Source: a virus. Taken from it: a stretch of DNA of 31,975 nt. Position numbers and translations under genes: made by a program. The notes under the pieces are model-generated. The model ran no database searches. It was not told the origin of the DNA and saw only the letters and a list, made by a program, of their open reading frames with translations. Position 1 is the first letter of the stretch. Every line of letters begins with the position of its first letter. This document shows positions 3,515-20,845 of this stretch, piece by piece. The stretch lies in the IMG/VR virus record IMGVR_UViG_3300035698_002302, positions 1-31,975 of that record, one strand, 5' to 3'.

Positions 3515-6317
3515 AATCCACGGTCTCCGTATTGACCTTTCCTCCCATTTTACCATACAGGTCTTTCTCGGCGTACCAGAGCAGCGCCTGGACATCCGCC
3601 GTGTCGATGTCGATTCCCTGCTTGCGCATGTTGTCGCGCACCTGAAGGATCACATCGCGCATGAAGTTTCGCTGGCCACCGCCGGACGGCGAATCAACCA
3701 CCGTCGTAAATGACTTATCCAGGTTGCGAGCGGCGTTGTTGAGCGCGTTCTTGTCCTTGTAGCCGCCGCCTGCAAACGTCTTGTGGATGATGTTCGCGGC
3801 GAGTTCTGGATTATCCCTGACCATCTCCGGGTCAACGCCCATCTCTTTCAGCTCGCGGTCATCGATCGAGTCGAGGAAGCCTTCGACCTGATTGCCAATC
3901 TTCTCTGGATTCGAGACCAGTGTGCCAGTGTGGCGACCATACGTGCGCTGCCACCATCGGTCGAACGTGGGCGGATCGTAGTTGCCCATCAGATTCTGCA
4001 TGAAGCCACCGCCAATCTTCGGTCCGAAGATCACGCTGCCCTTCACCTTGGTGTCCACGTTCTCGCCGCCGACTTTGAACCCAGCGTCGACCAGCTCCTT
4101 GACCGTGAAGTCTTTCGACAGGAAGCCCCTGAAACCCTCCTGGCCGTAGTCCTCGATCATCTTGTTGGCGGTCTTAAAGGATTTCTGCATCGCGGCCTTC
4201 TCTTTGCCGCTGCCAGCAATCGGGAACTCGCCGTTCTGCTTCCACTGCTTGTAGTAGTCGTTCGTCAGTCGGGCGTTGAGTCCAACCTCCTGACCGTTCG
4301 ACGTGATCGCCATGATGAATTTGAAGGCCGTCTCAGCGTTGGGATCTGTCGCAAGCTCAGGGTGCAGCTTGGTCGCATGCTCCATCGCCTCGGCGAGATT
4401 CTCCTTGTACCAGCCAGCCATGTTCGGGCGCTTCTGGTATGACGCCAGTGCCTCGGTTGTCATGTTGTCGGCGACCGTCTTGGCGTTCTCTGGAGTCATC
4501 TCCATTGGCTTGCCACCCCACGCCTCGAGCGCCTGCTCGTTGATGTCCATGCCGACGTCAAAGATGGTTTGCGAGTTTGGCGGCGCTGCCGGGATGTCAT
4601 CGTTGTAGATGAAGTCTGCCCGGTTGAGATCTGCGGTCGTTGCCTGCTGTCGCTGGTTGGCCAGTGCATTGCGAGAGACCTGAGCTCCAAGCACCTGTTT
4701 GCCACCGCCGGTATCGGATACGGATCCACGCTGCTTGCCACCCGGCTTGCCGCGCTCGACACCTTGAGGCAATGACTTGCCCAGGGCGTTCTTTGGTTGA
4801 TTGTATGCGGCTTCTTCGTTTCGCAGATCATTGCCATAGCGCTGCATTGCGCGATTGTCTATCGCATCAGTAGCGTCGATCTCGGCGTGCGTTACTGATC
4901 CACGGGGAACCTCGTTGCCGTATTCATCAATAAACTTCTCAGGGTTGAGAGAAGACCGTGTCAGCCGTCGCTGGCCATCGATGAACTCCCCTTGCGGCTT
5001 TGGTGCGCCTCTCGACGTGACTGAGCGGGAATCCTCAAGCTGCTCAAGCTCGTTGCGCATGCGGTCAATCTGCTCAAGGTCATAGTCGCCTTCCCGACCG
5101 TACTCGCGCTCCTGGACAGCGTCTTCGTAATCAGCACGACGCCGGTCAATCTCAGCATCGCTGATGTTCTCGAGATCCCGGTAGACGTTATCGAGCAGCC
5201 ACTTGGATTCCTTCTTCGCAGCCGCTGTGCCGACATTCTCTTCGAGGTCGTACATGCGGTCTTCAACGTCGCGCATGATCTCGATGTAGTCGTTGGCCTC
5301 AAGATCTCCGCGCTCTGCAACAGACTCGACAAGGCGCTGGGTGTCTTCACTGAAGTTCGTGATGGCATTGCGCCATGACTGCGCCTTCAGCACTTCCTTG
5401 CCGCCACCCGTGTCGCTAACCGATCCGCGTTGCTTGCGACCAGCAGCCATCAAGCCCGGAATCTTCGTCACGTCGCGGTCGTAACCAACGGTGGTTTCGG
5501 ATCCATCGCGCCTGACTTCCTTGACGGTGTAGCCACCTTCCGGCTCAGGATCCATTCGGTATGTCGTGCCCTCGTCTCGGAAGCTTCCATCGTTGCTGCC
5601 ACCGTTACCGGATCCGATTGGCCTGTCCATCTGCGCTTTGACTTCAGCGTCAGTCAGGATTGGCTTCCCGACCATCTTGCCGACCGGCTCGCCCATTGGC
5701 TGTCCTGACTGCATAGCTTCCAGGCCACGCGTCAGGTTCGGGTCACCAATCTGCGCCATCTCTGCCATCTGCGTGAGATCCTCGACGCTGAGTTTCTCTG
5801 CTGCCTCGTTGGCCATGTCGACGTACTTGCCAGCAGTCTTCGCGCCACGGCCTGCCGCGCCAGCCTGCTTTTTGCCGGGGATGGCTTCAGCGCCTGCAGT
5901 GGCGAGCGTCAGCGGAATTGCGGTCACCGCCGGGTTCCATCCCTGATCAGCACCGTATTGCGTGATCGCGCTCGATGCCTCAGTGAACGGTTCCATGATG
6001 GTATTGATGAAGTTGCCAAGGCCTTCGATGGCTCGCTTGCCCTCGGCTGACCGGGGCATGTACGTGAACTTCTCTTGGACGCTCTCGACATCGGCTGCAG
6101 GATCTCTGCCAGCACCCGTGGCCATCAGTCCTGACCAACCGGCAGGGATGTCGGCGGCGATGCTACTGGCTATCGTGCCACCAGCCTCTGCAACGCCCAT
6201 TGCATTGCGAGCGAGATCGCCGGCAAAGCCACGAATCCCACCGCCGGAAGTTTCTGCCTCTACTTGCTTGTCGAGTCGCATCGCCTCCGCGTTAGCGAGA
6301 TCTGTGTATTTGCCCAT
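3438..6317 (-). CDS. Large 959-residue putative virion/ejected protein with a repeated linker motif
   Basis: The start overlaps the stop of the gp4-like gene (TAATG at 6317). Residues about 30-70 and 130-150 are Ala/Gly-rich and hydrophobic, a style also seen near the N-terminus of the 735-residue protein at 28928-31135 and suggestive of membrane-interacting ejection proteins. A low-complexity, charged middle (about 330-510) carries coiled-coil-like Glu/Arg sequence. The motif KQRGSVSDTGGGK occurs twice (about residues 295-307 and 528-540). The C-terminal 380 residues look like a folded domain, with FDRWWQRTYGRHTG and DVQALLWYAEKDLYGKMG as its most distinctive blocks; I recall similar blocks in large multi-domain phage proteins but cannot name a function. 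P22 has no protein of this size between gp4 and gp10. Ejected effector, peptidoglycan or DNA-acting enzyme, or tail component are all possible. Confidence 0.8.
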   Translation of the reverse strand: MGKYTDLANAEAMRLDKQVEAETSGGGIRGFAGDLARNAMGVAEAGGTIASSIAADIPAGWSGLMATGAGRDPAADVESVQEKFTYMPRSAEGKRAIEGLGNFINTIMEPFTEASSAITQYGADQGWNPAVTAIPLTLATAGAEAIPGKKQAGAAGRGAKTAGKYVDMANEAAEKLSVEDLTQMAEMAQIGDPNLTRGLEAMQSGQPMGEPVGKMVGKPILTDAEVKAQMDRPIGSGNGGSNDGSFRDEGTTYRMDPEPEGGYTVKEVRRDGSETTVGYDRDVTKIPGLMAAGRKQRGSVSDTGGGKEVLKAQSWRNAITNFSEDTQRLVESVAERGDLEANDYIEIMRDVEDRMYDLEENVGTAAAKKESKWLLDNVYRDLENISDAEIDRRRADYEDAVQEREYGREGDYDLEQIDRMRNELEQLEDSRSVTSRGAPKPQGEFIDGQRRLTRSSLNPEKFIDEYGNEVPRGSVTHAEIDATDAIDNRAMQRYGNDLRNEEAAYNQPKNALGKSLPQGVERGKPGGKQRGSVSDTGGGKQVLGAQVSRNALANQRQQATTADLNRADFIYNDDIPAAPPNSQTIFDVGMDINEQALEAWGGKPMEMTPENAKTVADNMTTEALASYQKRPNMAGWYKENLAEAMEHATKLHPELATDPNAETAFKFIMAITSNGQEVGLNARLTNDYYKQWKQNGEFPIAGSGKEKAAMQKSFKTANKMIEDYGQEGFRGFLSKDFTVKELVDAGFKVGGENVDTKVKGSVIFGPKIGGGFMQNLMGNYDPPTFDRWWQRTYGRHTGTLVSNPEKIGNQVEGFLDSIDDRELKEMGVDPEMVRDNPELAANIIHKTFAGGGYKDKNALNNAARNLDKSFTTVVDSPSGGGQRNFMRDVILQVRDNMRKQGIDIDTADVQALLWYAEKDLYGKMGGKVNTETVDYATVWKQLAQGRQKGFRNALNQGAE
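4680..5435 (-). repeat. Two copies of a 19-codon linker motif inside the 959-residue gene (4680-4736 and 5379-5435)
   Basis: Both copies encode KQRGSVSDTGGGK followed by a similar tail (EVLKAQ or QVLGAQ) and then xxRNA. Thirteen residues are identical, while the DNA copies differ at many third positions (for example ggtatcggatacggatcc against gtgtcgctaaccgatccg), so the repeat is kept at protein level and is not a recent DNA duplication. The copies split the protein into an N-terminal region, a middle region and a C-terminal domain, and may mark domain boundaries or processing sites. Confidence 0.85.
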
Positions 6318-6736
6318 TAGCTGTCCGAGTTGATGTTGTACCCGTCGTAGAATTTGCCTTGACCGGCAGGGAGGTGACTCATGTCGACGTTGTCGAGCTG
6401 CTCGCGTGTCGCCTTGGATAGCAACATGCCGTAGGCGCGATCAGCAACAGCAGCAAGTTCCCCGCTCACAGTGGCTCCGTACTGCGGAGCGCACACGATT
6501 GCGAGACTCGTCCTCACTGCCAGACGTGCGTACATCGGAATCGGCGCGTTGCCGCTCGTCGAGGATTGCGAGTACCAACCGAAGTCGATACCGATCTCCC
6601 GCCACATGTCGAGCATCTCGTTGAGTTTGGATAAACACGTCTTGCCCTGTCCTGCATCCGCGCTCTGGTTCTCGGCGATGACATTGATCTCTCTCAATGC
6701 CCCGTTGATGATCTCCAGGTTCGTGATAGCAGCCAT
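6317..6736 (-). CDS. P22 gp4-like tail accessory factor / head-to-tail adaptor
   Basis: The 139-residue protein resembles P22 gp4 (166 residues) in length and pattern: an N-terminal helix INGALREINVIAENQSADA, a second helix LSKLNEMLDMWREIGIDFGW that matches the DLEAMMAEWYQDGI segment of gp4, and a helical middle (LAVRTSLAIVCAPQYGATVS) equivalent to the gp4 helix carrying LACRIAPDY. In P22, gp4 binds under the portal ring and provides the platform for gp10; it has also been linked to muramidase activity, for which I see no clear catalytic signature here. Start ATG 6736 has a GGAG upstream within a possible hairpin (6743-6760). The stop overlaps the next gene. Confidence 0.8.
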   Translation of the reverse strand: MAAITNLEIINGALREINVIAENQSADAGQGKTCLSKLNEMLDMWREIGIDFGWYSQSSTSGNAPIPMYARLAVRTSLAIVCAPQYGATVSGELAAVADRAYGMLLSKATREQLDNVDMSHLPAGQGKFYDGYNINSDS

Positions 6737-6742
6737 AACAGC

Positions 6743-6760
6743 CTCCGTGTGATTTCGGAG
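6743..6760 (-). promoter_or_regulatory. Possible hairpin covering the ribosome binding site of the gp4-like gene
   Basis: On the minus strand CTCCG (6760-6756) can pair with CGGAG (6747-6743) across an 8-base loop. The second arm holds the GGAG that precedes ATG 6736. The stem is only five base pairs, so translational control is speculative. Confidence 0.25.
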
Positions 6761-6764
6761 AATG

Positions 6765-7355
6765 TTAGCACGAGAAGAACGTGATCAGCACCAGTCTTCC
6801 ATCGAGCGTGTCCCTGCCAAAACCCTCTGGCGGTTCAGCGCGATGCATCAATTCAGCTTCGTAAACAGCCAGACGATTCTCTTCCCAGTACACCATGTCG
6901 ACCACATCCCAAGCGCTGTAGTCGTTGGTGTCGCGTTTCCACATGTCCCACTCGGCAACCGACTTGGGCGATCTGGTCATTCCGGTCTTGCGATGCGCCA
7001 AAATCGAGGTTCCGGCTTTTAAGTCATCTGGCGCAGGATTGACGTAGTAAAACGCAGAGTAGTCGCCGTGGACGGCATCATTGTGTGCGCCGTGCGGTGC
7101 GGGAGGGGTGCTTTCCGTCGTGAGCCGCCAAAACATCTGGTCTACTTTGATCGAGCGCCTCGGGATGCGCATCAGTCGTGCAATGGATCCAAGAATGAAG
7201 CTTTCAATCCACTTCGGCACATGGGCGTTGATGCCAGGGTAGATCACGCCGTCTGCCGGGCTCATGACATCGCTGTAACTAGCATTGTGGGCGTACTTCT
7301 TCAGCTCCCGGTAAAGCGAGGCCGAGAGAACATCGTCCATGATCTCGACGGTCAT
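6765..7355 (-). CDS. 2-oxoglutarate/Fe(II)-dependent dioxygenase (prolyl-hydroxylase-like)
   Basis: I place the start at ATG 7355, which overlaps the stop of the methyltransferase gene as ATGA, giving 196 residues. The double-stranded beta-helix signature is visible: HND (His91, Asp93) in GAHNDAVHGDYSAFYYVNP, a distal His171 in AELMHRAEP, and Arg187 in DGRLVLITFF for 2-oxoglutarate binding. Enzymes with this pattern hydroxylate protein side chains, nucleobases or small molecules using O2 and 2-oxoglutarate. The substrate cannot be read from sequence. It is the last of three enzyme genes (glycosyltransferase, methyltransferase, oxygenase) placed between capsid and tail-adaptor genes, so modification of a virion component is a fair inference. 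The longer frame upstream of 7355 is an antisense-like shadow over the methyltransferase gene. Confidence 0.85.
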   Translation of the reverse strand: MTVEIMDDVLSASLYRELKKYAHNASYSDVMSPADGVIYPGINAHVPKWIESFILGSIARLMRIPRRSIKVDQMFWRLTTESTPPAPHGAHNDAVHGDYSAFYYVNPAPDDLKAGTSILAHRKTGMTRSPKSVAEWDMWKRDTNDYSAWDVVDMVYWEENRLAVYEAELMHRAEPPEGFGRDTLDGRLVLITFFSC

Positions 7356-7861
7356 GCCTTTTTCAGGACAACGAAAAGCTGGTGCTGCGCCTCCTGAATC
7401 CCTTCGAGTTCCCAGTAGTTTTCCGCAAGCGCTGCGCGATAATCCGTGCAAGCCCCAGCTCCGACTTGGTCGTAATGGTCTTTCGTCAGGAACGCAAACA
7501 CCTCTTTGGGCAGCACTCGAGTATGACCGGGGTCGCCGTAACTCCAATGCGAGTCCCACATCGGCACTGTGATACACATGTAACCACCTGGCTTGAGGAC
7601 TCGCCGAAACTCCGCAAACTGCTTGAAGAAGAACTGCCAATCGCCTTGCGTTCCGACGTGTTCGAGTATCTCGTAGGCGTGAATTTCATCGTATACACCA
7701 TCGGCGAAAGGCAGAATGGGGTCGTTCAGATCATGCACGATGTCGCACGGCTGTTGCATGTCTAACCGTGTCGGGTTTTCGAATTCACTGTTCGGGCTGT
7801 CTGCCCACTTCATGCGCTTCTCGCGGTTGTTTCCTGCGCCGAGCAATAGTTCATTCTTCAC
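7352..7861 (-). CDS. Class I SAM-dependent methyltransferase (Methyltransf_11-like)
   Basis: The 169-residue protein has a degenerate glycine motif (LLLGAGNN, residues 5-12), an acidic strand region IVHDLND (41-47), then YDEIHAYEILEHVG (57-70) and FAEFRRVLKPGGYMCITVPM (82-101), which is the standard order of motifs in small Rossmann-fold methyltransferases. Such enzymes move a methyl group from S-adenosylmethionine to sugars, lipids, proteins or small molecules. Its start overlaps the end of the glycosyltransferase gene by 11 bases and its stop overlaps the oxygenase start, so the three are translated together. A glycan O-methyltransferase is a reasonable guess but not shown by the sequence. 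Confidence 0.82.
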   Translation of the reverse strand: MKNELLLGAGNNREKRMKWADSPNSEFENPTRLDMQQPCDIVHDLNDPILPFADGVYDEIHAYEILEHVGTQGDWQFFFKQFAEFRRVLKPGGYMCITVPMWDSHWSYGDPGHTRVLPKEVFAFLTKDHYDQVGAGACTDYRAALAENYWELEGIQEAQHQLFVVLKKA

Positions 7862-8690
7862 GGTCAGCTCCCTTGCGGCGCACCTTGCCGAGTTCGTCGA
7901 CCTTCTCTTTCAGGTAGTGGAGGTAGTTGCCCTTCACGCCACCATGATTGAAGTCGAAGTCAGGCCAGCACCAGATCGGCTCATCGAACACGCCGTCGCG
8001 GTAGTACTGCATGTAGTCATCGCAGAACGAATAGTCCTCGCCGACGAATCCGCCATGCTCATCGAACTTGGTATAGAACAGCCACGGCACAGGCTCGGGA
8101 TGATCCTTCAGTCGAACGCGGCGCTCGCACTTGTCGCTCATCGTCTGCAGCAATTCACGGCTGAGACACATGAACCCGGTCGGCGCTCGCTTCAGCTTTA
8201 GCCATCCGCCATTCATCTGCAGTCTGGGCGGCTTGCCATCCTCACCACTCCCCGGCAGCGGATCAAAAACAGCTGGGAAGGAAAGCGGTTTGCCATGATT
8301 GCGTCGTGGATAGACTCCGCACGTAAACGGGAGGCCAGAGCGAATTAGCCCAGGCATAGCTCGAGGCTCGAAGCCCACGTCGCCATCGATGAAGAAGAAA
8401 TGGGTGAAATCCTTCAGCGACTCGGAGGTCAGGAACTGTTGCACGAAGATGTTCCGCGCCATCTCGATGAATGCGCCGTTACCCATGACCGATGCCGAGC
8501 ATTCGATCAAATTGAGGCTGCAGAGCTGTCCTGCCATGAGGAGCTGCTGCGCGAAGTCGGTGTCGACCTTGCCATCGTATGCGGGGGTTGCCACGTGAAC
8601 ACGCAGCACGTTCGACTTGTCGACCTTACCCTCGTGATTGAAGTCTTTTTTCTCGGGCTTCGACTTTCCGCGATTCCTTTTGCGACTCAT
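7851..8690 (-). CDS. GT-A fold glycosyltransferase
   Basis: The 279-residue protein opens with a basic, disordered tail (MSRKRNRGKSKPEKK) and then shows VHVATPAYDGKVD, a nucleotide-sugar-binding style first strand. FFFIDGDVGFEP (98-109) holds the DxD-type metal/sugar-nucleotide motif (DGD at 102-104). APTGFMCLSREL (169-180) and GEDYSFCDD (217-225) are the acceptor-side and catalytic blocks commonly seen in family 2-like and related phage glycosyltransferases. It probably transfers a sugar from a UDP or GDP donor. It starts as TGATG on the stop of the Gp49-like gene and overlaps the methyltransferase gene, inside the late structural operon. The target could be capsid protein, DNA base or host surface glycan. 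Confidence 0.85.
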   Translation of the reverse strand: MSRKRNRGKSKPEKKDFNHEGKVDKSNVLRVHVATPAYDGKVDTDFAQQLLMAGQLCSLNLIECSASVMGNGAFIEMARNIFVQQFLTSESLKDFTHFFFIDGDVGFEPRAMPGLIRSGLPFTCGVYPRRNHGKPLSFPAVFDPLPGSGEDGKPPRLQMNGGWLKLKRAPTGFMCLSRELLQTMSDKCERRVRLKDHPEPVPWLFYTKFDEHGGFVGEDYSFCDDYMQYYRDGVFDEPIWCWPDFDFNHGGVKGNYLHYLKEKVDELGKVRRKGADREE

Positions 8691-9255: not shown

Positions 9256-9287
9256 AAAAAAGCCGAGGGAGCCGAAGCCCCCCCGAC
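9256..9287 (-). terminator. Rho-independent terminator after the coat gene
   Basis: Read on the minus strand, GTCGGGGGGGC (9287-9277) pairs with GCTCCCTCGGC (9272-9262) using G-U wobbles, with a TTCG tetraloop, followed directly by six T residues (9261-9256). It sits just after the coat stop codon at 9295 and before the Lys-rich gene. It probably ends or attenuates part of the transcript so that coat mRNA is more abundant than mRNA for the downstream genes. Confidence 0.75.
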
Positions 9288-9294
9288 TAAACGG

Positions 9295-10557
9295 TTACAC
9301 CAGATCCGCTTCGTAGCGATGGATGCTTGCCAGCTCAGGGTAGAGCTCTGCAAATCCCCACAGGATGTCGAGGCGGCAAGGCAGTTTGTCGTTGTTGATG
9401 TCGTACTGGCGAGCAATACGAATCGACATACCGTCCTGAACAGCTCGAGCGCCCCATGCGCCAAACTCGCTCACGTCAATCAGGTCAGCCGTTCCACAGA
9501 TGAATGCATCCTTGTGGAAGAACAGATCCTGCTTGAACTGGCTATCAGTTGCGCCAATCAGGGTGACCGTGAGGCCATCCGTGTTAGCGGTTCCTGACAA
9601 GACGCAGTTCTGGAACGCGTTGCCTGCACCGTAGATCAGCCCCGGCTTCACCGTCACGAGGTAGTCGTTGGCTGCGGTGGTCAGCGTCACGTCTGACTGA
9701 ACAACGAAGCGACGAAGCCGCCCGGTGTTGGTACGCAGCTCTGGATGAACTTCGTACACGCCATCAATCGTGATGATGTCGCCGGCAAGCAGGGTGTCGG
9801 CTGTTACGCCGTCAACTTGCAGATCGGTTTGACTCACCCAGGTGTTGGCAGTCGTTGACGTTCCGAGGTTAGCGCCATCGGTCACAGCAGCAGCACTGTC
9901 GAGAGTCCCGGTCGTGTGCGACGGCAGCAACGTGTTTTCGTACACGTCGAATCCGCCAGTGCGACCCATCATTCCCTCTTTGTACTGCTTCTTGATTGCG
10001 CCAGAGTCCTGGAACAGACCCTTCACGGCATCATTGAACTCAACGACAGAGTCGGGTGACAGAATCGCTGTGCGATCACTGCGCGGTCCGAGTTCGTTCG
10101 TGATGTTCTTGCCGTTCTGCTGGTAACGCTTGTAAGTCAGCAGGCCGTTGGTGGTTGCGTTGGTGTAGTTGAAGACACGCTTGTAGGCAACAGCGAGTGC
10201 ATCGCCTTCGACCTTCGCAGCGAGCTGGCTCATTGCGGGTTTCAGGAAACGATCACTGAAGTCATCAAGCTCCATCGTCAGCTCGGCTGTCGTGAAATTC
10301 ACGTCAACACCGTACTGGCTCTGGACGGTCAATGGAGTGGAACGCTCGACATGATCTTCGGCAGCGAGGGTAGCACCAGTACGAACTTCGTACTTGGACG
10401 GCATGCGAACATTCAGCGAGTAACCAATCTTCGCACCATCTTGTGCGTAGCGGTCATCGTACTGTTTGTTCACGTTACCGAGGAAGTTGCATTCCTGATG
10501 CAGAACCCGTGCGGCTTCGCGGGTAATCATTGTCGGCGTAAGGATTGAGTTAGCCAT
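9295..10557 (-). CDS. Major capsid (coat) protein, P22 gp5-like
   Basis: The 420-residue protein is close to the length of P22 coat (430) and lies directly after the scaffold gene. The N-terminal part (ILTPTMITREAARVLHQ) and the segment LRTNTGRLRRFVVQSDVTLT fit the gp5-type HK97 fold with an inserted beta-barrel domain, which I place roughly at residues 215-345 (Thr/Ala/Gly-rich, from SHTTGTLDSAAAV onward). ELTMELDDFSDRFLKPAMSQ is the helical spine region. An AGGAG ribosome binding site lies six bases before ATG 10557, as expected for the most abundant protein. A strong hairpin terminator follows. In P22, coat folding depends on GroEL/GroES; a GroES homologue is encoded upstream in this same operon. 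Confidence 0.88.
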   Translation of the reverse strand: MANSILTPTMITREAARVLHQECNFLGNVNKQYDDRYAQDGAKIGYSLNVRMPSKYEVRTGATLAAEDHVERSTPLTVQSQYGVDVNFTTAELTMELDDFSDRFLKPAMSQLAAKVEGDALAVAYKRVFNYTNATTNGLLTYKRYQQNGKNITNELGPRSDRTAILSPDSVVEFNDAVKGLFQDSGAIKKQYKEGMMGRTGGFDVYENTLLPSHTTGTLDSAAAVTDGANLGTSTTANTWVSQTDLQVDGVTADTLLAGDIITIDGVYEVHPELRTNTGRLRRFVVQSDVTLTTAANDYLVTVKPGLIYGAGNAFQNCVLSGTANTDGLTVTLIGATDSQFKQDLFFHKDAFICGTADLIDVSEFGAWGARAVQDGMSIRIARQYDINNDKLPCRLDILWGFAELYPELASIHRYEADLV

Positions 10558-10566
10558 GTGGCTCTC

Positions 10567-11460
10567 CTATCTCTTAGCAGCTAATTGTTTTTCCCTCGCT
10601 GCAAGCCACTCGGCGTCAGACATCTTGTCTGCAGTGCCAGGATCACTTGGTGAAGTCTTGAAACCGGGATCCGAGCCGTCGACCGTCTTTGCAGGCGGGG
10701 GCGCTTTGCTGGCTTTCGAGCGTTCGGCGTTAGCCTTGGCAACTTCCTTTCCGATTCGTGCTTCCAATTTAGTCATCTCCCGCATCTGAGCGGTTGGTGA
10801 CATTGCTGCTATCTTTGCGGCCTCTGGTTTGTTCTGCGCCAGATAGTCGCCAACATGCAGCCCGACTTCGCTTTCCGGGTCGATGATAAACATCGCCATC
10901 TCTTGCGAGACCATCAAGTCATCATCGTGGAGTCGCTCTTTGAATCCGGGGTTGTCTGCCTCGAAGGCATCCTCCCGTGCTTGGAGCTCGTCCTGCCGAC
11001 GCTGCGCCTCTGACTCTCTGGTCTGGTTGGCGTTGCGCTGCTCGATCCGACTTTCTGCCCGTCTTGCACCCTCGTCAATCAAATAATCGTTGAAGGCTTG
11101 TTCGTCGTAATCAAAATCACGAAGCGTCTTGATCGGCTTTGGCTTCTCATCAACCTTTTCGGGCTGGGGCTGCTGTTGCCTTTCCAGTTGTCGCTTCAGC
11201 TGCCTATTCTCAAAGGCAAGCTCTTCGATCTTCAGCTCACGTGCAGTGGGCTTCTTATCGTCAGGTTCGTTATCGGCTTTGTCCTTGCCGGACGGTGGTG
11301 AATCGTCATCCTTCTCTGCGCCTTCGCCCTGCTCCACTTCCTTCTCGTCACCCTCCGGTTCAACGAGATGTCCCATGTGCGGGTTCAAACTCAGGTCAGG
11401 CTCTGCACCTTTACTCTCGGTCTCGACGATAGGCTCGTCGGCAGCTTTCGGATCGTTCAT
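10567..11460 (-). CDS. Scaffolding protein, P22 gp8-like
   Basis: The 297-residue protein matches P22 scaffold in length (303) and in character: very charged, low in aromatic residues, with an acidic disordered N-terminus (about 1-75), a helical coiled-coil-like middle (LAFENRQLKRQLERQQQ, then ESRIEQRNANQTRESEAQ) and a short basic helical end (DAEWLAAREKQLAAKR) where P22-type scaffolds bind coat. It lies between portal and coat, the usual order. ATG 11460 overlaps the stop of the chimeric 65-codon frame as TAATG, with a GGAAGGG just upstream. Its first 74 codons are partly duplicated upstream (see the repeat entries). Confidence 0.87.
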   Translation of the reverse strand: MNDPKAADEPIVETESKGAEPDLSLNPHMGHLVEPEGDEKEVEQGEGAEKDDDSPPSGKDKADNEPDDKKPTARELKIEELAFENRQLKRQLERQQQPQPEKVDEKPKPIKTLRDFDYDEQAFNDYLIDEGARRAESRIEQRNANQTRESEAQRRQDELQAREDAFEADNPGFKERLHDDDLMVSQEMAMFIIDPESEVGLHVGDYLAQNKPEAAKIAAMSPTAQMREMTKLEARIGKEVAKANAERSKASKAPPPAKTVDGSDPGFKTSPSDPGTADKMSDAEWLAAREKQLAAKR

Positions 11461-11613: not shown

Positions 11614-11750
11614 TCGGTCTCGACGATAGGCTCGTCGGCAGCTTTCGGATCGTTCATTAACCCTCCCAGGCATCAGCGATTATCCCTCGCCGTCAGGGTT
11701 GATGACCTCAATTCGTGCCGTCTGGCCGTCCTCGTAGGTCAACTCTGAAT
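11417..11750 (-). repeat. Direct repeat of portal end plus scaffold start (11417-11554 and 11614-11750)
   Basis: The two copies (138 and 137 bases, offset 197) are identical except for one substitution (cccttcc against ccctccc) and one extra base in the 11417 copy (gccagtcag against gccgtcag). The extra base shifts the frame so the duplicated portal end reads WRGIIADAWKG instead of GEG-stop. Near-identity points to a recent event. Confidence 0.95.
11460..11657 (-). pseudogene. 65-codon chimeric frame made of scaffold and portal fragments
   Basis: This frame reads MNDPKAADEPIVETE, identical to scaffold residues 1-15, then PSGKDKADNEPDDKKPTAR, identical to scaffold 56-74, then one Asp and SELTYEDGQTARIEVINPD, identical to the portal C-terminus, then WRGIIADAWKG from shifted intergenic sequence. 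It arose by duplication of the portal end and scaffold start with loss of scaffold codons 16-55. All joins are in frame and it keeps a GGGAGG ribosome binding site, so a small peptide could still be made. It may instead be a debris product or an assembly artefact. Confidence 0.85.
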
Positions 11751-13986
11751 AAAGCTTACCATTCTCTCTGACTGGTTTACTACTGATTGGCACACGTCCT
11801 GCCTTGGTCTGCAGCTCGCCAAAGATCTTATTCGACTCCTGCATGAAGCTCGCCAGGGTGTCATCGATCGAACGCACGGCAGTGGCAACAGCGACGACAG
11901 CCTCATCCGGCTCGCCTCCATTGGCCTGCAGTTCCGATGACTTCTGATCCAGATTCGCGACCTCTTTGGCGATGTGTGCGTCGAACTCTGCCTTCACCCT
12001 GCGCAGTCGCTCGATGCGGATCTCGACATCCTTTCGGTTCTGCTCGACCTTGTGCGACTCGGCTTCGGCGTCGGACTTGGTCTGCTCGAGTTCCTTCTCG
12101 GCTTCCATCACCAGTTGGCCACGCTCCTCGACTGCCTGCATGGCCTGCTCGGCTTGCAACATCATCTGCTGCACTTCCGGCGGAACCTCTTTGCCTTCCT
12201 GCAGCTTCTGTTGGATCTGTGGCGGCAACAGTGTCTGCAGTCGCTCCGCAATCTCGTCGGCGTACGGCAGATCCATTGACTTCATGACCAGATCACCAGC
12301 CACGCCCATGATCTCAGGGAACTGCTGTGCCAGCTGGCCATACGTCTCTGCTGCCTCTTGGCGTAGCGTCGAGAAGCTTGGGCCACTGGTTACCGTGACA
12401 TCGTACTTGCCCTCGGACAGGTCGTTGACCTTGACCATCTTCTTGGTCTTTGGATCAATCACCACCTGGTTGACCTTCTTGTAGTCCTCGGCTCCATCAC
12501 TGCCAAGCACTCGCAGCTCACGCTCCGTGTCGTAGATCTCAGGGATCAGGTCGAGGATGATCTCGTAACTGCGCTGGATGCCCTTCGACATGTTGTCCTG
12601 AAAGTTGAACGTCGCGATCTCGCCTTGGTTCTGACGCGCCATGATTGCCCGACCGCTGGTCTCGTTGGACTGAGCTCCAAAGCTTGCATCGAAGATCCCG
12701 GTCACCGACTTGATCTCGTCGGATGCAATCTGCGTCTCTTGGATCAGCGCGACAGGTACATCAGCGCCACCCATCCGCGTCGGAGGCCCAGGCGCTTTGC
12801 TGTCTGCTTCGTACAGCATGAACGGGTAGTTCTTCTTGTGCGCCTGCTTCCACTGGTTGAGATGACCTTCGGACTGTTTGCTCGTTGCCCAGAAATGCGA
12901 CTTCGGCGCTTGAGCGATGGTCTCGCTGATAGCGGTTCGCGCAATGTTGTAGCTGCGCTGTGCATCCTTGGCAAAGCGAGGCAAGCCCCACCAGTACGAC
13001 CTGCCGTCAATCCATGCATGCTCGCCGAAGACCATCACGAACGGGAACATAGACCCAGCCCATTCTCCCTGCTCCAGAATCCGGTCACCACTGGCAATGC
13101 ACCATTGGATCTTCTCGGAGATGATCTCTCGTCGGCGCAGGATCTGCTGCGGGTCGATGCCACCAGCCTCGTCGGTGGTCGAGTCGACAATCTTCTTGGT
13201 GATCTCGCCCTCGGGATCTTCCGGGTCGGGCATGAACGCCACCTCCCAGATCTCCTTCTTCTCGGGAACCTTGTACCAGTACTCGCAGACCCGAGTCGTG
13301 GATTCGGTATTCCATTCCTCGTCATCGTCGAACTGGTGGTCGCCAGCTGTGAACTCGCTGACCGTGGCATCTGGCCACCGCTTCTCGAAGTCCTTGTTCG
13401 GGATCTTCTCGGTAATCGCCCAGTCCCTGGCATCACGCTTCAGGAAATCTCTGGCCTGAGGATCGCAGTAAACAGTGAACGGATTGCGGAATGGCTCGAG
13501 GACGATGTCCTGATTGAATGCATCGTCGCCAATGTACTTGGTGTTGATGCGCCATGCACACATCCCGGCTGCTGTCTGGTACTCGGCAGCGTAGTCGATG
13601 ATTGAGTCGCCATCGGACTGCTGCCAGATGTTGCGGATCAGGCCTTCATCGATGTTGGCAATCTCAGTGTCGCCACCCTCGACCGCCCGCACCTTAGCGC
13701 CAGGACGATTGCTGCGCATGTCGTTGATGATGCGCTTGCAGCTGATGCGAAGCTTGTTGAACTCATAGCATGGCCTGTTGCCACGCTCCTGCTTCATGTT
13801 GTGTTCCCACTGCTCGCCTGGGACGTTGGTGAACTTCAGGTCTTCCATCGCTGCAACGCGATTCTCGTGATCAGCCTCCGCCATCACTTTGTAGCGCTCC
13901 CGCATTTTCACGAGCAAGTCGGCGTTGTCCTTCTTGCGCATGTCGGGCATGCCGTTTTTCGTATCTTTAGGCTGCGTAGGTTCCAC
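11680..13986 (-). CDS. Portal protein, P22 gp1-like
   Basis: The 768-residue protein fits the P22-type portal family (P22 gp1 is 725). Typical parts are the N-terminal KMRERYKVMAEADHENR helix, EQWEHNMKQERGNRPCYEFN with the following RISCKRIINDMRSNRPGAKV, then FMVFGEHAWIDGRSYWWGLP and ARTAISETIAQAPKSHFW, and SFGAQSNETSGRAIMARQNQ in the wing/crown region. Residues about 600-710 form a long charged coiled coil (AEQAMQAVEERGQLVMEAEK onward) comparable to the helical barrel of P22 portal. The dodecameric portal is the DNA channel, packaging motor dock and nucleation point for assembly. Start ATG 13986 overlaps the end of the terminase gene by 20 bases. Its final 20 codons are duplicated just downstream. 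Confidence 0.9.
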   Translation of the reverse strand: MEPTQPKDTKNGMPDMRKKDNADLLVKMRERYKVMAEADHENRVAAMEDLKFTNVPGEQWEHNMKQERGNRPCYEFNKLRISCKRIINDMRSNRPGAKVRAVEGGDTEIANIDEGLIRNIWQQSDGDSIIDYAAEYQTAAGMCAWRINTKYIGDDAFNQDIVLEPFRNPFTVYCDPQARDFLKRDARDWAITEKIPNKDFEKRWPDATVSEFTAGDHQFDDDEEWNTESTTRVCEYWYKVPEKKEIWEVAFMPDPEDPEGEITKKIVDSTTDEAGGIDPQQILRRREIISEKIQWCIASGDRILEQGEWAGSMFPFVMVFGEHAWIDGRSYWWGLPRFAKDAQRSYNIARTAISETIAQAPKSHFWATSKQSEGHLNQWKQAHKKNYPFMLYEADSKAPGPPTRMGGADVPVALIQETQIASDEIKSVTGIFDASFGAQSNETSGRAIMARQNQGEIATFNFQDNMSKGIQRSYEIILDLIPEIYDTERELRVLGSDGAEDYKKVNQVVIDPKTKKMVKVNDLSEGKYDVTVTSGPSFSTLRQEAAETYGQLAQQFPEIMGVAGDLVMKSMDLPYADEIAERLQTLLPPQIQQKLQEGKEVPPEVQQMMLQAEQAMQAVEERGQLVMEAEKELEQTKSDAEAESHKVEQNRKDVEIRIERLRRVKAEFDAHIAKEVANLDQKSSELQANGGEPDEAVVAVATAVRSIDDTLASFMQESNKIFGELQTKAGRVPISSKPVRENGKLYSELTYEDGQTARIEVINPDGEG

Positions 13987-15265
13987 TGTCCATCCCCTCG
14001 TATGGGTTCTTTGGCTTTCGGTCGTTGTTCGTCAGCTCGTCTGCAACGACGGCAGTGTAGCACCACGCCTCTGCACCATGCGAAAAGTCATCCTTGTCTG
14101 GCGATGAGCGTTTGTCCGGGTTGGTGTTGCTGACCTTGTACTTGAATCGCTTCAGGCAGCGCATCAGATCGTCGCCGCCCATGTCCGGGTGGTCGTTGAT
14201 GTAGGCATTGCCAAACATGCGCCGACCCTTCTCGATGTAGTTCTCGACTCCCTCCTGTGGGATCTCGTCGGTCTCCCATCCAAGGTCTTCCATGATCTTG
14301 TAGTGGCTCTGTCCTGTCTTGGGATCTCGGTGCGCGGCGTCATGCGGCATCCAGATCTTTCCCCAGTTCCAATCAGGGTGCTTGGTCTTCAGCTCGTTGG
14401 TGATCTTGTCGTAGGTGCTGTTGCGCCACTCGTAGTAGCCAATGACCTGGACGGTCGAGCCGAAGCGCTGCGCCAGTACCATCGTCATCACGCCATAGCC
14501 CAAGTCCATGATGCCGTGGACACGTCCCATCGGGTCATAGTCCATTGCCCGGAAGCGTCGGTCGGTCTGAAACTTCGAGACCTCATTGGCGAAGATAGCG
14601 CCCTCGACCGCCGGCAGACAGTAGCCAAGCCAGACGTGACGATAGACGTGCTTGTCCGGCGCCAGGTCACGGTCGTAGTCATCGATGCGTTCCTGCTCAA
14701 GCTCGGTGTCATCGAACCACGGGTTATCCATGTAATCCATCTTGATGACGTGGCTGTCGCTGGCAGGCTTGGCGATGAATCTTTCATAGGCCGGATCATC
14801 GTCCAGTTCCGGGTTCATGCTGATGTAGAAGCGACTGCCCTTCTTTCGAATGGTCGGCACGAGGATGCGTAGCGAGCGATTGCTCAGGACGTGGGCTTCC
14901 TCAAGCCAGACATCGTCAATGCCCTCGAGCGACTTCAGGCTATCGATCGACTCGTTGCTCAGACCACGGAAGATGAAGCGACTGCCGTTCATCCCGTCGA
15001 TGCCGCCCTTGTTGGTCTTGAAGAATCCACTGAGACCCATTCGGCGCTGGGTGTCCATGAGCAGCTGCATCACCGACTCGTCGAGCGACTTCTGGATCTC
15101 ACGACCGCATAACACCCGGCGTGGCTCCAAATAGGCATTCAGCGACAGGATCTCAGCAAACGTCCAGCTCTTCGCCGATCCGCGACCACCGTACAACGTG
15201 TTGTAGCGCCGTGGATCCTCGTAGACGGGCAGCGTCTTCTCTGGGATCTCGAAGCGAACCTTCAT
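13967..15265 (-). CDS. terL: Terminase large subunit (Terminase_3 / PBSX-like ATPase-nuclease)
   Basis: The 432-residue protein has Walker A GGRGSAKS (26-33), Walker B with catalytic acid DDVWLEEA (117-124), a coupling motif near ISMNPE (148-153), and an RNase H-like nuclease domain with acidic residues in GIMDLGYG (Asp254), MPHDAAHRD (Asp309) and DKDDFSHGAEA (Asp392/393). It pumps DNA through the portal and makes the packaging cut. ATG 15265 overlaps the TerS stop as ATGA, and its end overlaps the portal start, so the packaging genes are tightly coupled. It is complete and shows no broken motif. Confidence 0.93.
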   Translation of the reverse strand: MKVRFEIPEKTLPVYEDPRRYNTLYGGRGSAKSWTFAEILSLNAYLEPRRVLCGREIQKSLDESVMQLLMDTQRRMGLSGFFKTNKGGIDGMNGSRFIFRGLSNESIDSLKSLEGIDDVWLEEAHVLSNRSLRILVPTIRKKGSRFYISMNPELDDDPAYERFIAKPASDSHVIKMDYMDNPWFDDTELEQERIDDYDRDLAPDKHVYRHVWLGYCLPAVEGAIFANEVSKFQTDRRFRAMDYDPMGRVHGIMDLGYGVMTMVLAQRFGSTVQVIGYYEWRNSTYDKITNELKTKHPDWNWGKIWMPHDAAHRDPKTGQSHYKIMEDLGWETDEIPQEGVENYIEKGRRMFGNAYINDHPDMGGDDLMRCLKRFKYKVSNTNPDKRSSPDKDDFSHGAEAWCYTAVVADELTNNDRKPKNPYEGMDSGTYAA

Positions 15266-15570
15266 TCAGTCGGGTCTTTCCGCTTCTTCGCCCTGACCAC
15301 ACTGACCACAATCTCGGTTGGGAAGAGCGGCGAATCCTCATCACCAGCAATTGGCGTGACTGGTCGACCGTCCATGCGGTTAGCAATCTCCTGCCACGAA
15401 TCCTTGTCACCAGCCAGAGCGTTGTCGACCACAATCTTGGCCACGCTATCGAGACCAGCCTCTACGGACTTGACCTTGCCAGACACGCTGCGAGCAAGCG
15501 CCCTCTCGAGCGCCTCCTTCCACAGCTTGCCCTTCTTGGCGTTGTTGTTTCCTTTAGGTGCGCCAGCCAT
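15262..15570 (-). CDS. terS: Terminase small subunit (likely)
   Basis: From ATG 15570 the protein is 102 residues, beginning MAGAPKGNNNAKKGKLWKEAL, a basic start seen in many small terminases, followed by helices (ALERALARSVSGKVKSVEAG, LDSVAKIVVDNALAGDKDSW) and EIANRMDGRP, a block common in TerS-like proteins. A GAGG lies nine bases before this ATG. The frame is open up to 15636, but that part overlaps the GroES gene and is basic shadow sequence, so 15570 is preferred. The assignment also rests on position directly before TerL with an ATGA overlap. TerS recognises the packaging site and stimulates TerL. Confidence 0.8.
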   Translation of the reverse strand: MAGAPKGNNNAKKGKLWKEALERALARSVSGKVKSVEAGLDSVAKIVVDNALAGDKDSWQEIANRMDGRPVTPIAGDEDSPLFPTEIVVSVVRAKKRKDPTE

Positions 15571-15574
15571 TGAA

Positions 15575-15889
15575 TCAATCCTCTTCTGTTTTGGTCTCAG
15601 AGGCCTGCACTGTGATGGCGACAATGTCCGCTTCATTCATCACGACGTACTTCTCGCCGTCCTCTTCGACCTCGAGGCCTGTGAATTTGCCAAAGACGAT
15701 ACGGTCTCCGGGTTGCACGTCACAGCGCCTCTGGTTGCCTTCAGGAAGGATGCGCCCGGTTCCCACGGCGATCACTGTCCCTCGGCTTGGTTTGTCTTGT
15801 GCTTCGGTCGGGATCAGGATCCCACCGGCAGATGCTTCTTCCACCTCGTCGCGTTTGACTACGATCCGGTCATGCATTGGGAATAGCAT
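15575..15889 (-). CDS. Phage-encoded GroES-like co-chaperonin (Cpn10)
   Basis: The 104-residue protein is a clear Cpn10: HDRIVVKRDEVEEASAGGIL near the start, RGTVIAVGTGRILPEG, DVQPGDRIVFGKFTGLEVEE and EKYVVMNEADIVAI at the end, all in the bacterial GroES order. The mobile loop (about 16-36) keeps a hydrophobic triplet Ile-Leu-Ile at 24-26, the segment that docks on GroEL, so it is likely able to form the lid of the host chaperonin. Phages such as T4 (gp31) use their own lid to fold coat protein. Here it sits one gene before TerS and in the same operon as a P22-type coat, a class that needs GroEL/ES to fold. GAGG lies 10 bases before ATG 15889. Confidence 0.93.
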   Translation of the reverse strand: MLFPMHDRIVVKRDEVEEASAGGILIPTEAQDKPSRGTVIAVGTGRILPEGNQRRCDVQPGDRIVFGKFTGLEVEEDGEKYVVMNEADIVAITVQASETKTEED

Positions 15890-15904: not shown

Positions 15905-16258
15905 TTACGTGTTGACATGCCCTAATACTCTCTTTGCTGTTAAAACTGCTCTGCCCGTCGCTTCAGTGGCCAGACCTCGGTCGGCGACAACGATGAGCTC
16001 TAATCGTTCGGATGGTCGGTAGCGTTGCACGACCTTCACGGCTGAAGGCGCAATGGATGCGCTGACAATTTCAGCTGGGGTCAAGGCCGTGTAGCCAAGT
16101 GTCTCCTGGCATGAGTCCATGTTGTAAACCCGGTACTCGACGGTGGTCGGTGTGTCGGCAAGTGATGTCGACTCGACTCGGAATGCTGCAGTGAACGGCA
16201 CGGCACTTCGCTCGTTCACGACAGTGCGTGGGATCTGTACTGCTACAACGTCGGCCAT
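15905..16258 (-). CDS. Hypothetical protein, beta-rich, 117 residues
   Basis: Not recognised. The sequence alternates hydrophobic and polar residues (VPFTAAFRVESTSLADTP, TTVEYRVYNMDSCQETLGY, AVKVVQRYRPSERLELIVVA), typical of a small beta-sandwich, comparable to Ig-like or decoration domains in phage heads and tails. An AGGAG lies six bases before ATG 16258. It is placed between the nuclease cluster and GroES, so a minor structural or head-decoration protein is possible. Confidence 0.7.
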   Translation of the reverse strand: MADVVAVQIPRTVVNERSAVPFTAAFRVESTSLADTPTTVEYRVYNMDSCQETLGYTALTPAEIVSASIAPSAVKVVQRYRPSERLELIVVADRGLATEATGRAVLTAKRVLGHVNT

Positions 16259-16287: not shown

Positions 16288-16626
16288 TCAAAACGCGCTC
16301 TGCGCCACACGGATTAGATCCTTCCGGGCGCGTTTCACTTCTCGGACGAAGCATCGCAATGCAGAATAGTTGCCTTGGTCGCGTCCACGAACTGCGGCCA
16401 TCCTGACTCTGCGCCCGTAAAGTGTCTCAATTTCTTGCATGTCAGATCCTTGGAGAAATCGATGTATGTCGCGGTCGCTTGATCGTTCGCCAACTCGGTC
16501 ATTATGCAGCCACATTCCAATTTCCACTGTGACTGGATCCGCAATGGACTGAAGGTGGCGTCTAATCGCATCGCGATCTTCCTCACGATCGATAAGTCGG
16601 TCGAATCCTTCATCGAACTTGTTCAT
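16288..16626 (-). CDS. Hypothetical helical charged protein, 112 residues
   Basis: Not recognised. Residues are mostly helical and rich in Asp, Glu and Arg (FDEGFDRLIDREEDRDAIRR), with a WLHNDRVGERSSDRDIHRFL middle and a basic C-terminal helix (REVKRARKDLIRVAQSAF). There are no Cys pairs, membrane segments or signal peptide. It starts 18 bases after the Ref-like nuclease gene and belongs to the same transcript. An overlapping frame at 16335-16613 is less convincing in composition. Confidence 0.6.
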   Translation of the reverse strand: MNKFDEGFDRLIDREEDRDAIRRHLQSIADPVTVEIGMWLHNDRVGERSSDRDIHRFLQGSDMQEIETLYGRRVRMAAVRGRDQGNYSALRCFVREVKRARKDLIRVAQSAF

Positions 16627-16644: not shown

Positions 16645-17085
16645 TCATCGTTTCCGCTCCCAATACTCGGTGACCTTTTGCCGGGTGTGAAATGGCACGT
16701 CGTAGTCGAACCAAGGACTGCGCTTGTGTGCCTCAATCAGATGACTGGCTATCTTCACCAGCAATGCCTCGTGTCCGAAGCTCTCCTGAAACGGCCTCTT
16801 CCCCAGCGCCAAAGATGGCCCGAGCAATCCCATCGTTGCCTGCTTCGCGCCGCCGACATGACCAGCTAGATGCTGCCAGCTCTCGAGCGGTGTTCCGAAG
16901 TGATGCCAGTCACACAAGCTGTACGTGCTGTCGTGGCCATCGCGCTTCATCCCGGTCACCGTGTGTTGGATGGTCGGCAGTCTGACCTTGTTGAGCATCA
17001 GGCACGGAATGCATGGCACGTGTTCCTTCAGGATCGTCATGCGCTCCTTCTGCTCCTTCGTCGGGGCTTTCGTTTTACCGACCAT
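16645..17085 (-). CDS. Ref-like HNH nuclease (RecA-dependent nuclease family)
   Basis: The 146-residue protein shows the Ref-type signature: a zinc-type pair CIPC (25-28), His41 in IQHTVTG, GHDSTYSLCDWHHFGTP (50-66, with Cys58 and His61/His62 of the HNH site), and the family hallmark GPSLALGKRPFQESFGHEAL (89-108). Phage P1 Ref is an HNH endonuclease that cuts DNA at RecA-made displacement loops and stimulates recombination; related proteins are found in many phage ninR-like regions. I infer a role in recombination or host takeover. It overlaps the VRR-NUC gene by 11 bases, giving two neighbouring nuclease genes. Confidence 0.83.
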   Translation of the reverse strand: MVGKTKAPTKEQKERMTILKEHVPCIPCLMLNKVRLPTIQHTVTGMKRDGHDSTYSLCDWHHFGTPLESWQHLAGHVGGAKQATMGLLGPSLALGKRPFQESFGHEALLVKIASHLIEAHKRSPWFDYDVPFHTRQKVTEYWERKR

Positions 17086-17371: not shown

Positions 17372-17529
17372 CGCCACGACCTCATCCAGTTGCTGATTGA
17401 CGGCTCGCGCTTTTTATCGATGTATTGGCGCTGGTGTTCCATCACGCATGGTTTGCACAGCAGCCGGTTCTTGTAGAAGTCATCGACGGGCTTCGTGTGT
17501 TTGCACTCTTTGCATGTCTTCGTCTTCAT
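17368..17529 (-). CDS. Small zinc-ribbon-like protein, 53 residues
   Basis: This short frame exactly fills the space between DUF1367 and VRR-NUC, with ATGA overlaps at both ends (ATG 17529 on the DUF1367 stop, TGA at 17370-17368 on the nuclease start). It encodes MKTKTCKECKHTKPVDDFYK, then RLLCKPCVMEH and a basic tail. The two pairs CKEC and CKPC form a four-Cys zinc site, and the KxxxxFYK pattern is like small phage zinc fingers often found beside HNH nucleases. Likely nucleic-acid binding; function unknown. Confidence 0.8.
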   Translation of the reverse strand: MKTKTCKECKHTKPVDDFYKNRLLCKPCVMEHQRQYIDKKREPSISNWMRSWR

Positions 17530-17996
17530 GGTCCAAACTCCATGATCTGCTCGACCACCATGCGCAGCTCGTCACCAGAGTACGCTCGCATCACGTGCTT
17601 GATGATCACGTCGATGGTCTTGTCGTAGAGTTTCTCGAACTCATCCTGCGACATGTTGGCGAAGCTGATTGACTTAGGCTCCAGGCGGGTCTCGCCGTTC
17701 AGGCGATAGTAGGTCTCATAGAATCCGCACAGGATCGTAATGTCAGCCCGGAATCGGTCGAAGTTCTTCTCTGCCTGCCCGGACTCAGCGCCGGGTGGTT
17801 CCCAACAGTCGTAAGCGTAGTTAAGCAGCGCGAAGTACTTGCGATGGTGGTCGACGTTGCGCATTCGAGTGATCTTGATTCGCAGCGGTTGCCCGACCGG
17901 AAACTTGTTGAGCTCCTCCTGGTCGGTGTCGTGCGCAGGAACCAGTGCAGATCCGCGTGGCATGTGTTGCTTGATGCAGAAGAATTCACTCATCAT
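17526..17996 (-). CDS. DUF1367 family phage protein
   Basis: The 156-residue protein has the recognisable DUF1367 core: LRIKITRMRNVDHHRKYFAL followed by LNYAYDCWEPPG, then NFDRFRADITILCGFYETYY, and EPKSISFANMSQDEFEKLYD followed by KTIDVIIKHVM. Members occur in the early regions of many lambdoid and related phages, often near recombination genes; the function is not known, though single-strand DNA or recombination roles have been proposed from position. ATG 17996 overlaps the upstream stop; a second ATG follows immediately and is also possible. Confidence 0.85.
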   Translation of the reverse strand: MMSEFFCIKQHMPRGSALVPAHDTDQEELNKFPVGQPLRIKITRMRNVDHHRKYFALLNYAYDCWEPPGAESGQAEKNFDRFRADITILCGFYETYYRLNGETRLEPKSISFANMSQDEFEKLYDKTIDVIIKHVMRAYSGDELRMVVEQIMEFGP

Positions 17997-19483: not shown

Positions 19484-19782
19484 GTTCCTCTCCTCTTGTC
19501 ATGCTCGAACGTCTGCTTGTAGTGCGTCCGTGCTGCGTGACGATAACGGAATAAATGACAGTGCAGAAGCGACTGTCGCAATTGGCCGAGGGCAAGGTGT
19601 ATGTGCTCGGCAAGATACTCGGTCCACCAGAAGTCCAGCGCGATGATGACTTCGAGGTCCCCCTTCGCGCCTCGGTACTCGACGAACGTGAAGATGAACT
19701 TGTTGTCCACCCAGCGTAACCCTCCGACCTTCAAGTCATCGGGTGTGATGTACACTCTGCGTGTCCGCTTCGTAGTACTCAT
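19480..19782 (-). CDS. Hypothetical protein, 100 residues
   Basis: Not recognised. The first half looks like a compact beta domain (RRVYITPDDLKVGGLRWVDN, then KFIFTFVEYRGAKGDLEVII), followed by FWWTEYLAEHIHLALGQLRQ and a His/Arg-rich C-terminus. ATG 19782 overlaps the stop of the PAPS-reductase-like gene as ATGA and its own stop overlaps the next start. The tight coupling with the PAPS-reductase-like protein may reflect a joint role, but nothing in the sequence proves it. Confidence 0.72.
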   Translation of the reverse strand: MSTTKRTRRVYITPDDLKVGGLRWVDNKFIFTFVEYRGAKGDLEVIIALDFWWTEYLAEHIHLALGQLRQSLLHCHLFRYRHAARTHYKQTFEHDKRRGT

Positions 19783-20537
19783 GCGATACGTGCTCCGTTG
19801 TGGAAGACACTGCCGCCCGCGGTCTGCAAGTTGGCACCGTTCTGCCGTTCTTCCTGCCAGCGTACGACCTTGACTTCAGTCTTGCCGGCGTGAATGCACG
19901 GCATACATCCGACGTGCTTCATCCCCTGTTCGTATAGCGGGTTCCACTTCACGTCGTGCTTTTTGTGCATGTCAAAGCAATCCTCGGCTTTCCAGTCGAG
20001 AATCGGTCGGTAGTTCATGACACCGAAGTCGCCCTGCTCAAGCTCGTCCAGGTGGCGACGTGCTGGTGATTCATCCCGGCGCACTCCCTGCCACGAGTAG
20101 ACCTCGTCGAATTCTTTGCAGGCCGGAATGAAGACCTGTTCCATCATCGGCAAGACCTTCAGCTCTTCGGTGCAGAACCGTCTGCGCGTCGACGGGAAGC
20201 GACCTTTCCAAATGCATAGATCCAAGAATGGATTGCCAGTAGGAACCAGCAGATTGAGCGCCTCGTCGATGTGTTCCTGAGCGACTCCATCGAGCGCCCA
20301 CTGCTTGACGATGAACTCCCGCTTCCCAGCTATACGGCCTTTGAAGTTGGCCTTCACTCGGCGAATCGGAATGCCCAGTCGCTCCTCGAGGTAATCGATG
20401 TACTCGTAGGTCGACGGGTGTTCGTGACCAGTGTCAGCAAACACGCATCGCAAGTTCTCGACCTCGCGCTCGATGGCCAGTAGCAATGTCGCGGTGCTGT
20501 CTTTGCCGCCGCTCATGTTGACGTAGTTGGCGCGCAT
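19779..20537 (-). CDS. PAPS reductase-like PP-loop protein (ATP pyrophosphatase)
   Basis: ATG 20537 overlaps the upstream stop as TGATG and gives 252 residues; the longer frame to 20678 begins with Arg/His-rich shadow sequence. The PP-loop SGGKDS is at 9-14, followed by FADTGHEHPSTYEYI (33-47) and SWQGVRRDESPAR (148-160). Cys108, Cys122 and the CMPC pair (211-214) could hold an iron-sulfur cluster. The family includes sulfonucleotide reductases and related enzymes that activate a substrate with ATP, including DndC of DNA phosphorothioation. No DndD or DndE partner is visible, so phosphorothioation is not supported. Phage members are frequent and mostly uncharacterised; nucleotide or tRNA sulfur chemistry is possible. 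Confidence 0.87.
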   Translation of the reverse strand: MRANYVNMSGGKDSTATLLLAIEREVENLRCVFADTGHEHPSTYEYIDYLEERLGIPIRRVKANFKGRIAGKREFIVKQWALDGVAQEHIDEALNLLVPTGNPFLDLCIWKGRFPSTRRRFCTEELKVLPMMEQVFIPACKEFDEVYSWQGVRRDESPARRHLDELEQGDFGVMNYRPILDWKAEDCFDMHKKHDVKWNPLYEQGMKHVGCMPCIHAGKTEVKVVRWQEERQNGANLQTAGGSVFHNGARIA

Positions 20538-20845
20538 CAATTCGGCTTCCGGATGACAGACGCTAGGGCGGCAGGCTCTATGGTGCGCCGGTATTGAACT
20601 TCCTTCACCCAATTGTCGAGACCATCCTCTTGTGCAGCGGCAAGCATTCGTCCTGCCTCTTCCATGTCGGGCGCGCACAGATAGACCTTCTCGACGGTGT
20701 ACGTCGCAAGTGTCAGTAGCGCCGATCCCATCGCTTTCGGATAGGCCTTGCCAATCGTCTGCAAACTGTCTTCAACACCAGTGATGAACGTGTGCAGCGC
20801 TTCGGTTTCTTCGGGCGTCAAACCCTCTGATTTTTCTTCACTCAA
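20537..20845 (-). CDS. Hypothetical helical protein, 102 residues, TTG start
   Basis: I choose TTG 20845, overlapping the upstream TGA as TTGA, with GGAG eight bases before it. The longer frame to 20959 overlaps the Zn-protein gene and reads as basic shadow. The protein (SEEKSEGLTPEETEALHTFI, then GVEDSLQTIGKAYPKAMGSA) is all-helical, with a basic end. Its family is not recognised. Position just before the PAPS-reductase-like gene with TGATG overlap suggests coupled translation. Confidence 0.7.
   Translation of the reverse strand: MSEEKSEGLTPEETEALHTFITGVEDSLQTIGKAYPKAMGSALLTLATYTVEKVYLCAPDMEEAGRMLAAAQEDGLDNWVKEVQYRRTIEPAALASVIRKPN

Follow-up and report, generated by a model that had tools for sequence, protein, structure and literature searches.

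Why does a virus carry a gene for the co-chaperonin GroES together with the genes for its head, and what might the product do there? The question is raised by an IMG/VR virus record, referred to here as the window, which is 31,975 bases long and probably fragmentary. Its minus strand encodes, at positions 15575 to 15889, a 104-amino-acid GroES (Cpn10) in an open reading frame that starts with ATG and includes its stop codon.

The identity of the gene product can be stated plainly. The open reading frame matches the Pfam Cpn10 family (PF00166) with an E value of 1.4e-29 and 102.4 bits, against a cutoff of 21.1, and residues 3 to 92 cover profile positions 3 to 92 of 93, which makes it a full-length domain. 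PHROG 3188, "co-chaperonin GroES," is matched at 3.5e-27, and the protein is 47% identical to Escherichia coli GroES (GroS) across 91 residues. In the alignment of the two, the mobile-loop triplet I24-L25-I26 follows Gly-Gly, such that GGILI pairs with the GGIVL (Ile-Val-Leu) of E. coli, the mobile loop is of equal length with no insertion, and the roof segment is kept at the E. coli length. The window gene differs from its E. coli counterpart in having no adjoining GroEL gene and in encoding an acidic C-terminal tail. The structure model has a pLDDT of 85.8 overall, with a drop to 62 in the block of residues 21 to 30 that is consistent with a mobile loop. It matches solved bacterial GroES chains with Z scores of 12 to 15.5, including 12.8 for 1aon_O, and the GroES beta-barrel fold was recovered with a Z score of 15.5 and an rmsd of 1.8 over 86 residues of Thermus Cpn10 (1wnr_G). 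The Pfam and PHROG scores, the identity to E. coli GroES, and the fold match together exclude a chance match, and the initial annotation of a complete Cpn10 with an intact Ile-Leu-Ile triplet is borne out.

The genomic context is that of a P22-type head module, comprising a P22-family portal and a P22-family coat with an inserted domain, as judged from Pfam matches and a coat model. On the minus strand, the order is g15905, groES, a candidate small terminase subunit (TerS), the large terminase subunit (TerL), portal, scaffold, and coat. The first of these genes, g15905 (15905 to 16258; 117 amino acids), is kept ahead of the terminase genes in relatives. The candidate TerS (15262 to 15570) had no family match over the cutoff, and similar proteins lie directly before TerL in several relatives (29 to 55% in tblastn). 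TerL (13967 to 15265) matches PF04466 at 1.1e-32, the portal (11680 to 13986) matches PF16510 at 7.6e-161, the head scaffolding protein (10567 to 11460) matches phrog_8865 at 4.4e-25, and the coat (9295 to 10557; 420 amino acids, 46.0 kDa) matches PF11651 at 2.8e-37. These genes are tightly packed: 15 nucleotides separate g15905 from groES, 4 nucleotides separate the groES stop codon from the TerS ATG (15570 to 15568), TerS overlaps TerL, TerL overlaps the portal gene, and 9 nucleotides lie between scaffold and coat, the exception being a gap of 219 bp between portal and scaffold. Further, a ribosome-binding-like AAAGAGG (AGAGG) for groES sits in the last codons of g15905, and a similar site for TerS, AGAGGA, sits at the end of the groES gene.

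Signals around these genes were called by consensus scan, and the calls are to be read as such rather than as RNA or functional evidence. Just past the coat stop codon, the minus strand carries a terminator-like hairpin of 12 pairs followed by a T-run (9261 to 9288). Between 9200 and 16700, the scan found no promoter-like site, and the minus-strand terminator-like sites there were a weak one at 16311 to 16294 and an overlapping group for the single hairpin at 9288 to 9261, with none between 16294 and 9288; counting both strands, there were 10 terminator-like sites, against a shuffle mean of 6.9 (standard deviation, 2.9). Given the shared strand, the tight spacing, the lack of an internal terminator-like site, and the strong one after the coat gene, the arrangement fits one transcription unit running from about g15905 to the coat gene. 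Hence, where groES had been described as cotranscribed with terminase, portal, scaffold, and P22 coat genes, the neighbors are confirmed by their family matches, and cotranscription itself would follow from strand, spacing, and the terminator scan. Upstream of this late unit, a RecA-dependent nuclease (PF16786) and a NinB/Orf recombination mediator are encoded on the minus strand at 16645 to 17085 and 17526 to 17996, respectively, in a lambdoid-like layout; a protein with a PAPS reductase domain (19779 to 20543, minus strand; PF01507, 1.5e-30), possibly with a DNA modification or host metabolism function, is also encoded.

No Cpn60 was found in the window record, which points to the host GroEL as the likely partner; as the record is probably a fragment, a phage GroEL could also lie beyond it. 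Among 10 records searched for Cpn60 (window included), one was positive, that of Flavobacterium phage immuto, where GroES and GroEL are encoded as a pair. For a complete phage GroES in a head operon with no GroEL in the record, a lid for the host GroEL is the natural reading, as had been proposed. We therefore consider it likely that groES is an accessory gene for a functional phage GroES, expressed late in infection alongside the head proteins and serving as a lid on the host GroEL. Mechanistically, GroES would be produced along with the head proteins, would assemble as a heptamer to cap the host GroEL, and would thereby raise the co-chaperonin supply while TerL, portal, scaffold, and coat, its presumed substrates, are being mass-produced. 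Its effect is probably a generic boost of the host GroEL capacity for folding head proteins. The protein family, the retention of the key segments, the place in the operon, the lack of GroEL in the record, and the patchy occurrence described below all support this explanation.

The initial annotation went further and proposed that a dedicated lid could suit a coat whose inserted domain differs, as T4 gp31 serves gp23. On that account, the host GroES would be unable to fold the window coat and the phage lid would be able to. The presence of groES and the coat gene in one operon speaks for such a relationship, as does the T4 precedent, in which GroES is described as no substitute for gp31 in gp23 folding (PMC3012670). 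T4 gp31 is likewise a phage-encoded co-chaperonin of related fold (Z scores of 8.8 to 9.4 against our GroES model). However, gp31 is described as having no roof loops and a longer mobile loop of 22 residues (PMC6318259), whereas the window GroES keeps its roof and the loop length of E. coli; gp31-like remodeling was sought, and neither the absence of a roof nor a lengthened mobile loop was found. The coat offers no better grounds. Its model (pLDDT of 76.8) can be aligned with the P22 procapsid coat along 377 of its 420 residues (Z score of 30.1, rmsd of 3.4, 15% identity), and, among the matches listed, no chain from outside the P22/Sf6/CUS-3 group aligns along more than 269 residues. The modeled coat thus has a P22-like inserted domain and, at 46.0 kDa, an ordinary size, so that comparison with P22 reveals no different domain and nothing unusual that would call for a special lid. 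This P22 match along the length of the coat ruled out a lid specified by coat size or fold as the leading reading. Moreover, the premise that the P22 coat depends on GroEL/ES appears overstated: GroEL/S is reported to engage temperature-sensitive coat mutants significantly more than the wild type (PMC2267774).

The distribution of the gene among coat relatives bears on the same question. These relatives comprise 143 distinct IMG/VR loci, namely, the best 80 of a first scan plus 63 new ones among the best 80 of a second. The Pfam Cpn10 search covered the whole records of the first 80 loci (50, followed by 30 among a set of 38 records); all 143 loci were also searched with a Cpn10 profile built in this analysis. 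Of the 63 new records, the 15 that reach beyond their locus were covered as well. Cpn10 was found in a single one of the 143 listed coat loci, L015, although these counts may miss close kin of the window record. A TerL-based scan yielded one locus only. At least 600 bp before TerL are covered in 31 of the 143 listed loci, and in 19 of those, identity to the window coat is 55% or more; Cpn10 is missing from 18 of these 19, and the nineteenth is L015 itself. Among these 18 are L017, L018, L019, L021, L022, L105, L108, and L113, with coats that are 69 to 76% identical, which again argues against a lid dedicated to this coat. The distance from g15905 to TerL is 639 bp in the window versus 238 to 383 bp in most close relatives, and the slot in L017, L113, and L141 holds small open reading frames of 61 to 62 amino acids with no resemblance to GroES. 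Given these Cpn10-free close relatives, shorter junctions, and unrelated small genes, groES has the look of an insertion, and the slot that it occupies between g15905 and TerS is variable. In terms of the mechanism outlined above, it would be an accessory gene rather than a conserved partner of the window coat.

In L015, the Cpn10 gene lies 3' of the coat gene, between genes similar to those at 7851 to 8690 and 6765 to 7397 of the window, so that a position ahead of the head genes may not matter. The latter window gene (6765 to 7397, minus strand) encodes a DUF6445 protein that has relatives 3' of the coat in both L012 and L015. At its C terminus, the L015 GroES (12964 to 13425) extends into a tail of about 35 residues, several of them cysteines, which might be a small metal-binding element, and the L015 TerL (4487 to 6763) carries an intein (PF14890, 1.5e-10). 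One pattern runs the other way: the scaffold type of the window occurs among the relatives only in L012 (61%) and L015 (59%), the others being at about 23 to 38%, and of these two, L015 has GroES and the L012 contig ends short of the slot. This counts against a plain accessory insertion and in favor of a coat-specific lid. Weighing it with the P22-sized and P22-folded coat, the unremodeled GroES, the 18 Cpn10-free loci, and the different location of Cpn10 in L015, we regard a coat-specific lid as unlikely.

The variable slot and its unrelated occupants, together with the other position taken by GroES in L015, would equally suit a captured host gene that serves general folding or stress tolerance (of tail, injection, or replication proteins, or for the fitness of a lysogenic host) and reached the late unit by chance insertion. 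The viral GroES gene next to replication genes in L002, where it adjoins a DNA polymerase gene, is a further point in favor. Its weakness is the repeated placement of phage GroES among or beside head genes, in both P22-type and gpT-type heads, and we hold it to be quite unlikely.

That placement emerges from comparison with other phages. Among 46 phage records that match the window coat, at least two have Cpn10, Xanthomonas phage PBR31 and DSL-LC05, on the basis of three tblastn queries and one annotation. The PBR31 GroES (orf017, MT119766), which was already annotated, shares with the window the order GroES, small open reading frame, TerL, portal, scaffold, and coat, as well as the lack of GroEL in its record; it differs in sequence, with 37% identity for GroES and 39% for the coat, and its mobile loop is about six residues longer. 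In DSL-LC05 (L102), Cpn10 lies directly before the portal gene. Its Cpn10 (L102:900-1148) lacks the roof segment and has a shortened mobile loop, and the sequence contains an ambiguous residue. Since this Cpn10 is known through annotation only, short divergent Cpn10s may escape both Pfam and our profile; a tblastn search with it revealed no further phage, apart from records resembling host DNA. A term search for "GroES" and "chaperon" gave no hit in the main text of the PBR31 paper (PMC10975493) or of the DSL-LC05 paper (PMC10611076), and among open-license PMC papers we found none on GroES in P22-type head operons.

The GroES genes of CRP-902 and MW202796 also lie among head genes, between the genes for the portal and the major head protein; they differ from the window case in their 28 to 35% identity and in the coat, which in CRP-902 is annotated as Mu gpT-like. 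MW202796 was grouped with CRP-901-like phages by gene order in this analysis, and we take the CRP-902/MW202796 group to be HMO-2011-like phages. The MW202796 Cpn10 (L009:19983-20318), like that of DSL-LC05, is without a roof segment, a trait that both share with T4 gp31. A partial GroES match lies ahead of the major head protein gene in L091. In the Pseudoalteromonas siphovirus B8b, a GroES open reading frame was described among structural genes and suggested to act in the assembly of the capsid or tail, and it was noted that myoviruses and podoviruses were known by then to carry GroES (PMC4294664); set beside the window by this description, B8b is alike in the structural neighborhood and differs in being a siphovirus with the open reading frame near the tape measure gene. 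For the generic co-chaperonin that we favor, the PBR31 gene order, the head-gene GroES of CRP-902 and MW202796, and the portal-adjoining GroES of DSL-LC05 are points in support. The relatives with similar coats and no GroES are points against, as are GroES genes away from head genes in L002, in L007 (next to a metallo-phosphoesterase gene), and in Vibrio phage D93 (where the surrounding 7 kb contain no head gene annotation).

Where the gene came from can be addressed in part. The best bacterial GroES identity was 48% among 64 loci from a pattern-based genome scan and 52% in 198 genomes of one phylum (that of L168; 187 with a match), in a comparison that additionally included E. coli and may not include the GroES of the host. 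A very recent host copy, which the initial annotation had raised as a challenge to its own reading, was accordingly not seen among the bacterial GroES found. That groES is a nonfunctional host copy, either recent or in decay, seems very improbable to us; its patchy distribution would fit, as would its codon adaptation to phage genes, which is among the lowest (0.599; 0.549 to 0.769 for the other 19 genes), but the core is intact, the identity to any bacterial GroES found is at most 52%, and the GC content of 56.2% is like that of the phage.

A GroES tree of 68 rows and 98 columns joins the window GroES with that of viral L002 (support of 92/88), near Acinetobacter GroES, and the window, L015, and PBR31 GroES do not join, with weak support. 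With so few columns, long phage branches, and 27 of its 65 inner branches open, the tree says little about GroES origins. Two records listed as Acinetobacter "phage" MD-2021a (CAKLQH020000021 and CAKLQF020000019) match GroES; the first, in which groS-groL is surrounded by bacterial housekeeping genes, resembles host DNA. The tree includes the MD-2021a GroES among its host rows, and GroES-matching "phage" records that resemble bacterial contamination, MD-2021a among them, were left out of the phage cases. Tentatively, and with more doubt than conviction, we suggest that GroES may have been acquired by P22-type phages on several independent occasions, within or next to the late head unit, because co-chaperonin supply or the fit to the host GroEL would limit head assembly in some hosts. 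If so, groES would be a host adaptation module through which a single coat could fold in different bacteria.

The phage GroES lid gene is thus a real but optional extra of a kind already recorded in other phages, and it leaves the general picture of phage co-chaperonins unchanged. What the window adds is a clean example of a P22-type late operon in which a phage GroES occurs with no phage GroEL alongside it. With PBR31 available as an isolated phage and with near relatives lacking the gene, the question of what purpose a phage GroES serves can be approached by natural comparison.
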